A stretch of 64,000 nucleotides of DNA, from positions 1,798,001 through 1,862,000 of the forward strand of contig NC_013174.1 in NCBI RefSeq assembly GCF_000024065.1. Reading direction: 5' to 3'. The notes under the pieces were generated by a model. The model had not been told where the DNA came from. It saw only the letters and a list, made by a program, of their open reading frames with translations, and searched no databases. Both the position numbers and the translations under genes were made by a program. Source of the stretch: Jonesia denitrificans DSM 20603 (lineage in GTDB: Bacteria > Actinomycetota > Actinomycetes > Actinomycetales > Cellulomonadaceae). Below, one piece after another: positions 38,569-49,435 of this stretch (its first letter is position 1; each line of letters starts with the position of its first letter).

Positions 38569-40209
38569 TTATGCAACCGGTTTGACCCCCGCGTGGATAA
38601 GCCCGTACACGGCAGAATCAATGAGCGCTTCCCACGAAGCTTCTAAGATGTTCGGACCGATCCCGACAGTGAACCACGAACTCACACCATCTGTTGTTTC
38701 GATCAGAACTCGGGTGATCGCATCAGTTCCCTGTTCTTGATCCAGAATCCGCACCTTGAAGTCAATGAGTTCAAACTTGGCAATCTCCGGGTAAATCTTC
38801 TCAACCGCATGGCGCAACGCCTGGTCAAGGGCGTTCACCGGGCCGTTTCCTTCCGCGGTGACAATGATGCGTTCCCCACCGGCATGGAGTTTGACCGTTG
38901 CTTCCGCGATCGCTTCGTCACCGGTGGACCCATAGTTTTCCACAATGGTCCGCCATGACTCGACCGTGAAATACTCCGGGAGCCCACCAGATACCTCATC
39001 CCGCAACACAAGATCAAACGATGCGTCCGCAGCTTCATAGGTGTACCCCTGCTGTTCCGCTGACTTCACACGGTTCGTGATACGAGTAAGCACCTCGGTT
39101 TGACCCGCCAGGTCAAACCCCAGCTCTTTTCCTTTGAGTTCAATCGATGCGCGGCCCGCCATGTCAGAGACAAGCATGCGCATGTCATTGCCCACTTTGG
39201 TGGGGTCTGTGTGCTGGTACAGGTCAGCGTCGACCTTGATCGCTGACGCATGTAACCCTGCCTTGTGTGCAAACGCCGAAGCCCCCACGTAGGGTTGACG
39301 GGCGAATGGAGAAATGTTCGTGATCTCAGAGATGGCGTGCGCGATACGCGTCGCATCATCAAGACGTCCACCACGAAGAACGCGACGGTCATACTTGATC
39401 TCCAAGTTCGCCACTGTCGTGATGAGGTCAACGTTGCCGGTTCGTTCCCCATACCCGTTGACGGTGCCTTGGAAATGCTGGGCTCCCGCATCCAACGCAG
39501 CCAACGTATTGGCCACCGCGCACCCAGAATCGTTGTGGGCGTGCATCCCAAGGATGCCCTCCCCTGTGCGCTCACGCAGTTCGCTGACAATGTCACTCAC
39601 CCAGTTGGGGAGCATCCCACCGTTAGTGTCACACAGACACACCACTTCAGCGCCCGCATCGAACGCCGCGAGTGCAGCATTGGTGGCATAGTCGGGGTCG
39701 TACCGGTACCCGTCAAAGAAGTGCTCCGCGTCGACAAACACACGGCGCCCTTCCCCCACCAGGAAAGCAACTGTGTCCCGGATCATGGCTAGGTTCTCAG
39801 CACCATCAGTTTTCAGTGCCCGCTCAACATGCCGGATATCTGACTTCGCCACCAACGTCACCACAGGTGCTTGGGAGTCAAGAAGCGCGCGAACCTGAGG
39901 GTCCTTATCTGTGGCCACTCCCACCTTACGGGTGGCCCCAAACGCGGCCAACACCGCGTTCTTTAATGTCAACTCCCGGGCAGCACGAGCAAAAAAGTCC
40001 GTGTCCTTGGGGACAGCACCAGGCCATCCTCCCTCAATAAACCCCACGCCCAGCTCGTCTAGGAGAGGAGCAATGGCCAGTTTATCCGTGACGGACAAAC
40101 TGATGCCTTCCTGCTGCGCACCGTCGCGCAAAGTGGTGTCGTAGACGTGGAGAGTCACAGTCGGTTCCAACTTTCGTTCTCTGGGGCGTGCGGCGGTGAG
40201 CAGATCCAT
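38569..40209 (-). CDS. cimA: (R)-citramalate synthase
   Basis: Condenses pyruvate and acetyl-CoA to citramalate, a threonine-independent route to 2-oxobutanoate for isoleucine. DRE-TIM metallolyase: VYDTTLRDGAQQEGISLS near residue 22, GFIEGGWPGAVPKD, GMHAHNDSGCAVANTLAALDAGA, NGYGERTGN; LeuA-type allosteric dimer domain at about 410-540. The long CimA-type N-terminus and the GGWPGAVPKD motif favour citramalate over isopropylmalate synthase. ATG 40209 is used; GTG 40158 (VTLHVYDTT) is an alternative. Preceded by a leader-peptide attenuator (40252-40386). Confidence 0.93.
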   Translation of the reverse strand: MDLLTAARPRERKLEPTVTLHVYDTTLRDGAQQEGISLSVTDKLAIAPLLDELGVGFIEGGWPGAVPKDTDFFARAARELTLKNAVLAAFGATRKVGVATDKDPQVRALLDSQAPVVTLVAKSDIRHVERALKTDGAENLAMIRDTVAFLVGEGRRVFVDAEHFFDGYRYDPDYATNAALAAFDAGAEVVCLCDTNGGMLPNWVSDIVSELRERTGEGILGMHAHNDSGCAVANTLAALDAGAQHFQGTVNGYGERTGNVDLITTVANLEIKYDRRVLRGGRLDDATRIAHAISEITNISPFARQPYVGASAFAHKAGLHASAIKVDADLYQHTDPTKVGNDMRMLVSDMAGRASIELKGKELGFDLAGQTEVLTRITNRVKSAEQQGYTYEAADASFDLVLRDEVSGGLPEYFTVESWRTIVENYGSTGDEAIAEATVKLHAGGERIIVTAEGNGPVNALDQALRHAVEKIYPEIAKFELIDFKVRILDQEQGTDAITRVLIETTDGVSSWFTVGIGPNILEASWEALIDSAVYGLIHAGVKPVA

Positions 40210-40251: not shown

Positions 40252-40296
40252 GTGCCAACAAAAAAACCTCCCGACTGGGTCATGGGAGGTTGGCAC
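40252..40296 (-). terminator. Attenuator terminator upstream of cimA
   Basis: On the minus strand AACCTCCC (40284-40291) pairs with GGGAGGTT (40265-40272), followed by a run of seven T's: a strong factor-independent terminator placed between the leader peptide and cimA. It is nested in a wider repeat GTGCCAAC/GTTGGCAC (40289-40296 and 40252-40259) that shares bases with the stem and may form an alternative structure. Confidence 0.85.
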
Positions 40297-40317
40297 GTTC
40301 GACGGGTGAGTCGAACG
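40296..40317 (-). promoter_or_regulatory. Leader hairpin in the cimA attenuator
   Basis: Perfect 8-bp inverted repeat, CGTTCGAC (40296-40303) and GTCGAACG (40310-40317), 6-nt loop, starting 3 nt after the leader-peptide stop. Position fits a pause or regulatory hairpin in a ribosome-dependent attenuator. Confidence 0.6.
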
Positions 40318-40319
40318 CG

Positions 40320-40349
40320 CTAGCGAATAATGAGCTGCATCAGTGCCAT
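40320..40349 (-). CDS. cimA leader peptide MALMQLIIR
   Basis: A nine-codon frame, ATG GCA CTG ATG CAG CTC ATT ATT CGC TAG, with two Leu and two adjacent Ile codons just before the stop. It starts exactly 7 nt after the -10 box, so the transcript would begin at or next to the AUG (leaderless). It is followed by a hairpin and a strong terminator before cimA. This is the layout of amino-acid-sensing transcription attenuators; stalling at Leu/Ile codons would allow read-through into an isoleucine-pathway gene. The expression itself is inferred. Confidence 0.75.
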   Translation of the reverse strand: MALMQLIIR

Positions 40350-40356
40350 AGGCCAC

Positions 40357-40386
40357 ATTCTAGGTGAGGAAGTGGGTGTGTCCCAA
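40357..40386 (-). promoter_or_regulatory. Promoter of the cimA leader
   Basis: Minus strand: -35 TTGGGA (40381-40386), 18-bp spacer, -10 TAGAAT (40357-40362), leader ATG 7 nt later. It lies between the ilvE hairpin and the leader peptide, so cimA has its own promoter. Confidence 0.7.
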
Positions 40387-40417: not shown

Positions 40418-40452
40418 GCTCCCTGCAACCACGCCCAGTGGTTGCAGGGAGC
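40418..40452 (-). terminator. Hairpin after ilvE
   Basis: Perfect 15-bp inverted repeat, arms 40418-40432 (GCTCCCTGCAACCAC) and 40438-40452, loop GCCCA, 21 nt after the ilvE stop. No T run follows, but stem strength and place suggest transcription ends here before the cimA promoter. Confidence 0.65.
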
Positions 40453-49171: not shown

Positions 49172-49322
49172 CAAGTTCTCCTCATCGTTGTTGTCGTGCA
49201 ATAGCCGGCTGCTGGTCGAGCAAGTCGGGACACCTCTACACGGGGCGCGTACCCCAAAGCATCCTTCAGTGTGTCCAAGACTTTCTGGGTCTAGGACTTA
49301 TGTCCGCTTTCATGCTGACATG

Positions 49323-49350
49323 AAAAAACCCCCCGCACCGGGTGAGGTGA
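49323..49350 (-). terminator. Attenuator terminator upstream of ilvB
   Basis: On the minus strand ACCTCACCCG (49338-49347), a short GTG loop and CGGGGGG form a GC-rich stem followed by six T's (49323-49328). It lies between the leader peptide stop (49385) and ilvB, 150 nt before the ilvB start, so it can abort transcription before the structural genes. Confidence 0.8.
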
Positions 49351-49362
49351 CTGGGAGGATCC

Positions 49363-49406
49363 GCGCGTTGACAATCAGCTCAAGTTAGTGGGCTATGCCA
49401 ACGCGC
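49363..49406 (-). promoter_or_regulatory. Regulatory stem overlapping the ilvB leader peptide codons
   Basis: A perfect 8-bp inverted repeat, GCGCGTTG (49363-49370) and CAACGCGC (49399-49406). The 5' arm in the RNA lies within leader codons 10-13, so a ribosome stalled on or before these codons would prevent this stem from forming. That is the expected switch element of a translation-dependent attenuator. Confidence 0.65.
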
Positions 49407-49435
49407 TTGAGAACTAGGACGACTGTCTTCCGCAT
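49385..49435 (-). CDS. ilvB leader peptide MRKTVVLVLKRVGIAH
   Basis: A 16-codon frame (ATG 49435, TAA 49385) with four Val, two Leu and one Ile among 16 residues, including the run VVLVL. It is too short for standard gene finding. ATG lies 6 nt after a -10 TAGTCT, so the mRNA probably starts at this AUG. A stem overlapping its codons and a terminator follow. Leader peptides of this kind are known before ilvB in corynebacteria and other actinobacteria; identity here rests on composition and layout. Confidence 0.85.
   Translation of the reverse strand: MRKTVVLVLKRVGIAH

Follow-up and report, generated by a model that had tools for sequence, protein, structure and literature searches.

What controls transcription into cimA, the citramalate synthase gene of Jonesia denitrificans DSM 20603, and what could oppose the terminator that stands ahead of it? 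The DNA that we analysed (the window) is a stretch of 64,000 nucleotides, for which an initial annotation had proposed a leaderless leader-peptide attenuator with isoleucine control codons ahead of cimA. Comparison with relatives supports this central claim, and we hold with high confidence that the predicted isoleucine attenuator is real. The antiterminator had been left open. In our opinion it is most likely the first hairpin of the leader itself, here called P1, which abuts the terminator hairpin (T) and has no segment in common with it.

The cimA leader and its relatives

The promoter, the nine-codon frame ending Leu-Ile-Ile-Arg and the terminator with seven T's are all present as they had been described, and the downstream gene is indeed cimA. 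The first hairpin had to be redrawn. It was thought to have 8 bp and to begin 3 nt past the stop; it has 11 bp and starts with the G of the leader stop codon. The features are as follows.

40357-40386, minus strand: promoter read from the sequence, TTGGGA (40386-40381), an 18-nt spacer and the -10 hexamer TAGAAT (40362-40357), which lies 7 nt from the leader ATG
40320-40349, minus strand: leader frame MALMQLIIR and stop, predicted to be leaderless (ATG 40349-40347, TAG 40322-40320), with the codons ATG GCA CTG ATG CAG CTC ATT ATT CGC TAG
40326-40331, minus strand: control codons ATT ATT (Ile-Ile), codons -3 and -2 relative to the stop
40293-40320, minus strand: hairpin P1, 11 bp, the proposed antiterminator, with 5' arm 40320-40310 (GCGCGUUCGAC), loop 40309-40304 and 3' arm 40303-40293 (GUCGAACGUGC)
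40292, minus strand: linker of 1 nt between P1 and the terminator, an unpaired C
40260-40291, minus strand: intrinsic terminator T, with arms 40291-40284 (AACCTCCC) and 40272-40265 (GGGAGGTT) and seven T's at 40266-40260
38569-40209, minus strand: cimA, citramalate synthase, the putative regulated gene (TIGR00977, 602.6 bits against a cut-off of 450), beginning about 50 nt after the T run

The genes around cimA are ilvE, leuB, ilvC, ilvB and ilvD. Between the end of ilvE and the promoter of the cimA leader lies a 15-bp perfect hairpin without a T run (GCTCCCTGCAACCAC/GTGGTTGCAGGGAGC, 40418-40452, minus strand), possibly the end of the ilvE operon. The leader RNA folds with -37 kcal/mol (z -4.1 against dinucleotide shuffles), and its minimum free energy fold contains P1 and T together. 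Since the two hairpins have no paired bases in common, both can coexist at equilibrium.

The region upstream of cimA was compared across the family in 30 genomes from 25 genera, this genome among them, and the element is present in all 30. The order of its parts is a -10-like hexamer, 6-7 nt, ATG or GTG, a short frame with terminal Ile codons, a stop, P1, T, the T run and cimA. A covariance model built from these 30 elements (R1) gives the element of the window 75 bits and an E-value of 2e-16 within its own genome, this sequence being itself part of the model. At the level of the order, R1 matches 177 of 396 genomes; a second, broader model (R2) was applied to 395 genomes of the class, of which it matches 269, and to 198 of the phylum, of which it matches 48. 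A protein search supplied a second set of 80 named cimA loci of actinomycetes, whose genomes partly overlap the family sample. The element stands directly upstream in 76 of them, including loci of Cellulomonas, Sanguibacter, Promicromonospora, Ruania, Nocardioides, Jiangella, Knoellia and Actinopolymorpha; the other four (L130, L177, L181 and L183) show no trace of it within 300 nt 5' of the gene. The gene downstream of the 199 elements collected is cimA in 197 cases and ilvB in 2. Judged by these matches, the cimA element is far more widespread than the initial annotation suspected. The best match to cimA in four genomes (G556, G574, G703 and G710) has a single in-frame TGA, which may be due to a sequencing error, a pseudogene or recoding.

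Conservation of the leader frame was the point on which the initial annotation had staked its proposal, and the frame is conserved. For 93 of 106 non-redundant elements the best pair of -10 and start codon shares its frame with the stop at P1; in the remaining 13 it is mostly the stop that is shifted, with the Ile codons still terminal beside P1. An extended -10 (with an upstream TG) is conserved in the 93 in-frame relatives, and so is its spacing of 6-8 nt to the start codon; a -35 is not conserved among them. The leaders have 7 to 20 codons, with a median of 9.

The presence of a frame open from a GTG at 40356 into cimA would allow the whole region to be read as the 5' part of a longer cimA (595 aa). 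We regard the chance of this as negligible, because leader, P1 and T are what is conserved: relatives keep the short frame, its stop, the helices and the T run, and they do not conserve the distance to cimA.

The control codons had been proposed to be Ile and Leu. Isoleucine stands: in 84 leaders with TAG at the foot of P1, for which codon positions were counted, Ile occupies position -2 in 81, -3 in 69 and -4 in 37, and its frequency is 27.8% in frame against 0.9% and 0.2% in the other two frames. Leucine at -4 is no more than frequent (27 of 84). That Ile codons make biological sense on cimA, the gene that opens one isoleucine route, was rightly pointed out at the start.

The distance between these codons and P1 is conserved as well. 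From the first nucleotide of the last Ile codon to P1 there are 8 nt in 90 of 103 leaders and 6-11 nt in all 103. In nine leaders the stop codon is shifted 7-16 nt into P1, and the Ile codons remain close to P1. Selection seems, from the comparison of leaders, to act on the spacing of control codons and P1, not on the position of the stop. Two loci of one genus (g5; L015 and L017) are a natural stop-shift variant, in which TAG has become GAG and the leader ends 3-4 codons later within P1 (VSNEAVVIIAERV and VSGEIIIRERA, each followed by a stop). In four further loci of a family that is probably Streptomyces (f37; L240, L242, L244 and L253) the cimA leader continues past Ile-Ile (for example VLSFAMIIGSRRAGPQ and stop) and the loop of P1 is long; these leaders are missing from the leader-peptide list of S. 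lividans TK24 (PMC8079986).

Coevolving helices and candidate antiterminators

Covariation in related genomes had been suggested as a check on the leader, and both P1 and T do covary. Across 98 distinct sequences 94.8% of the pair cells of the two helices hold standard pairs, 13 of the 19 pairs have changed on both sides, and cells with double changes number 193 against 56 in shuffles (none of 500 shuffles was as high), counts that are inflated by relatedness and come from an alignment fitted to the structure, though both helices rest on many pairs. In P1, 96.1% of cells are paired and double changes occur in 7 of 10 pairs; the values for T are 93.4% and 6 of 9. The signal is lost when the pairing partners are slid.

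A permutation test over 106 non-redundant elements set the energies of duplexes between native partner segments against those obtained after partners were swapped between genomes. It gives z -20 for the arms of P1 and z -15 for those of T, and all other tested segment pairs have |z| of at most 2; the relatives are not independent, so these scores, like the covariation counts and the Fisher test given below, overstate the number of events. A run with finer segments, the sequence after the T run included, found nothing coevolving beyond P1 and T, and there is no conserved structure 3' of the terminator (mean z 0.2).

In a trp-type attenuator the antiterminator shares a paired segment with the terminator, and it could be argued that the true antiterminator is of this kind, its pairings being too variable for the alignment. 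Indeed, UUCGACU in the 5' arm of P1 can pair over 7 bp with AGUCGGG in the loop or 3' arm of T in the window, UCCGG can pair with CCGGG in many relatives, and the ilvB-II motif has been modelled with the 3' shoulder of the terminator pairing into the loop of P1 (PMC10272879). However, such segments gain nothing from their own partners over swapped ones. Pairing of the 5' arm of P1 with the 3' arm of T (a:d) has z +1.4, for which we rejected this candidate, and the P1 loop with d has z -0.3; the same holds for b:d and for the leader with a, b or d. Moreover, a weaker later helix would need to displace the earlier 10-bp P1. We thus consider a shared-segment antiterminator unlikely. As only P1 and T coevolve, a strand-sharing arrangement is not conserved here, and the comparison supports no third pairing.

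Two other candidates were set aside. Single folds suggest an extension of P1 into T, or of T into P1, in the style of C. glutamicum; pairings of the leader with the T arms, or of P1 with the sequence after T, do not coevolve. The nested repeat that the initial annotation had noticed (40252-40259 with 40289-40296; GTGCCAAC/GTTGGCAC) does exist, and its suggested part in the switch has to be given up: the repeat is absent in the sister species J. quinghaiensis, its coevolution z within the family is about 0 to 1, and with P1 and T as the only coevolving helices it falls outside the switch.

What the comparison supports in its place is abutment. In single folds, P1 and T adjoin with no nucleotide between them in 112 of 180 relatives; they are 1 nt apart in 63 and 2 nt apart in 5. 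The loops vary from 2 to 44 nt in P1 and from 5 to 12 nt in T.

Ribosome position and the proposed blocking of T

Our reading as a whole, in which a ribosome-mediated attenuator senses charged Ile-tRNA and controls cimA, with P1 blocking T by abutment, appears to us quite probable. The following course is what we infer for translation and stalling, for the direction in which the element responds and for the block. Transcription would start at or beside the leader ATG, and a ribosome would translate the nine codons that end in Leu-Ile-Ile-Arg. With sufficient isoleucine the ribosome would come to the stop, where, reaching about 12 nt past its A site, it would cover the 5' arm of P1; with P1 prevented, T would close and transcription would end ahead of cimA. 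With isoleucine short it would stall at the Ile codons, 2-3 codons before the stop, and P1 would form. Standing 0-2 nt from the foot of T, P1 would keep the lower pairs of T from closing in the RNA exit channel, and RNA polymerase would continue into cimA. The block would be steric and kinetic: at termination the foot of T would sit deep in the exit channel, where an adjoining P1 could hardly fit at the same time. Taken by itself, this abutment step is one that we think somewhat likely to be correct.

The dimensions of the leader agree with such a course. A ribosome that stands at a stop codon extends about 12 nt past it (PMC4833913). The 5' arm of P1 usually starts at the last base of the stop codon and takes up 10 nt. 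If the footprint is taken as 12 nt counted from the A site, masking this 10-nt arm changes the median energy of P1 from -19.8 to -1.2 kcal/mol, which abolishes it. With the Ile codon at -3 in the A site 1 nt is masked and a median of -16.8 kcal/mol is left; with the one at -2 in the A site 4 nt are masked and -10.0 kcal/mol is left. From these energies, the formation of P1 should depend on whether the ribosome is stalled at the Ile codons or stands at the stop.

P1 could instead be a transcription pause or synchronising hairpin, as 1:2 is in trp, with the stalled ribosome acting in some other way. A hairpin beside the terminator could well pause RNA polymerase during ribosome loading, P1 forms only once the leader frame has been transcribed, and a pause role has been proposed for the tip of the first hairpin in C. 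glutamicum (PMC11857589). Yet the conserved distance between the Ile codons and P1, together with the way the P1 arm fits the footprint at the stop, ties P1 to the position of the ribosome, and a pause alone would presumably mean more termination on starvation, not less. We find it quite improbable that pausing is all that P1 does.

The same scaffold ahead of other genes

The genes 3' of the sampled R2 matches in class and phylum are cimA, ilvB, ilvA, leuA, leuS and one further case. The window itself holds an example:

49319-49435, minus strand: ilvB attenuator with the P1 and T scaffold and Val/Leu codons, leader MRKTVVLVLKRVGIAH and stop (49435-49385), R1 score 24.5 bits

It was found by R1, which is a cimA-only model. 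Its leader starts 6 nt past TAGTCT and its stop lies within the loop of P1; CUCAAG of the leader can pair with CUUGAG of this loop, which resembles the anti-antiterminator of C. glutamicum.

The ends of the leaders differ with the gene. They read IIIP, LIIE and SIIIIA before cimA, ILVL, LVVV, VVVI and LVLI before ilvB, NLLLT and ALLLL with the stop following before leuA, and AIT and stop before ilvA; before leuS the codons are for Leu. In codons -5 to -2, cimA leaders have 202 Ile against 59 Leu and Val, and ilvB leaders 13 against 64 (Fisher P 6e-22, uncorrected for relatedness). The ilvA (threonine ammonia-lyase) cases are three loci of one family (f36; L246, L247 and L251), and in L251 the leader VTVHEMAIT has Ile and then Thr directly before the stop. 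The leuS scaffold was seen at one locus and the leuA scaffold at two, all in other families; both leuA loci (L265, NLLLT, and L276, ALLLL) belong to other classes of the phylum and have a terminator. In L272 (1401-1482, minus strand) a leader ending SRVLLIT and stop is followed by a small ORF (MRFELYGRDRVGTVTW...) and then by prephenate dehydratase.

We read this, as far as sequences reach, as one module related by common descent with retargeting of its codons; convergence on the GCGCG foot of P1 may be the explanation instead. More tentatively, and with about as much doubt as belief, we propose a single attenuator design throughout the phylum, in which a ribosome-gated hairpin would block the terminator sterically by touching its foot, with no strand in common, the module having moved between cimA, ilvA, ilvB, leuA and leuS by a change of codons.

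These codons also bear on the view that there is no amino-acid response at all, with cimA held at a fixed low level by the leaderless peptide and terminator, or with P1 and T serving RNA stability. An argument for it comes from Streptomyces, where regulation of ilvB was unchanged by codon replacement; at least in the way PMC1262725 cites this work, changes of the candidate control codons of S. coelicolor ilvB had no effect. Against it stand the fixed positions of Ile (81 of 84 at -2) and the fact that the codon follows the gene, with Ile for cimA, Leu/Val for ilvB and Leu for leuA. Both are hard to explain other than by a codon-specific response, and hence we think it very unlikely that the element is a fixed device.

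Among known systems, ilvBNC of C. glutamicum (PMC11857589) and the ilvB-II motif of Corynebacterium (PMC10272879) come close. As predicted here, their leader starts at or beside the transcription start; they too have branched-chain codons, an intrinsic terminator, and bases of antiterminator and terminator that adjoin, if the proposed role of P1 is correct. In ilvBNC the two hairpins overlap by 3 nt (GCC), and mutations support switching at this boundary (PMC11857589). These systems differ in that they control ilvB, not cimA, and have 15-17 codons with Ile, Leu and Val mixed. Neither the GCC overlap nor the anti-antiterminator pairing with the leader is conserved in the cimA element: for a trinucleotide overlap at the boundary, or a pairing of leader and P1, no coevolution is found in cimA elements.

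A short leader with branched-chain codons and a terminator is likewise found in the ilvB attenuators of Streptomyces, Mycobacterium and other Actinobacteria (PMC1262725; M. tuberculosis ilvB1, PMC13236596; S. lividans ilvL, PMC8079986). The Streptomyces one is leaderless, as predicted for the cimA element. The published codons are rich in Leu and Val, in contrast to Ile in the cimA element, and the scaffold seen here ahead of ilvB appears to be of the same kind as these published attenuators. Leaderless too, though rich in Leu, are the leuS and leuA leaders of Streptomyces (PMC1262725, PMC8079986). The published LEU element of leuA consists of a pseudoknot with Leu codons paired to the Shine-Dalgarno sequence and lacks a terminator (PMC1262725, PMC8079986), unlike the leuA elements described above. 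The cimA element differs from it by its terminator, its Ile codons and the lack of pairing between leader and downstream sequence.

With the trp-type attenuators of E. coli the cimA element shares a short leader frame rich in codons for the product and an intrinsic terminator between this frame and the gene, and by analogy ribosome stalling would decide between termination and readthrough. It differs in that, being leaderless, it has no Shine-Dalgarno sequence, and in that only two hairpins are conserved, with no conserved segment that antiterminator and terminator would have in common. To judge from sequence, then, it works like a leader-peptide attenuator, yet without the classical shared segment. 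To our knowledge, the polycysteine uORFs of mycobacteria act without an intrinsic terminator. Going by the reference list of PMC13236596, they are leaderless short frames with a regulatory run of codons as well, for cysteine and not isoleucine.

Leader-peptide attenuators of ilvB, leuS and trp genes are known in Actinobacteria (PMC1262725, PMC8079986, PMC10272879, PMC13236596). An attenuator of cimA had been called less described, and this holds, as we found no earlier description in Rfam or in the searched literature. At the gathering score no family of Rfam 15, the T-box included, matches the leader or ten further loci; the sole match at a lenient threshold, Phe_leader with an E-value of 3.6, is due to chance. 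No cimA or ilvA attenuator was found in the actinobacterial attenuation literature that we searched, and an older attenuation survey (Lopatovskaya et al. 2010) may contain some.

The comparison describes an RNA family that is not yet listed, from a phylum that matters to industry and medicine. It also raises a mechanistic question, namely whether a hairpin that merely touches a terminator can silence it. The scaffold reads different codons ahead of different genes and so provides natural variants with which to test how codon, ribosome position and termination are coupled. For the organism, the element would be an isoleucine-specific control point for citramalate synthase, the entry to a pathway that is used for isoleucine, butanol and propanol.
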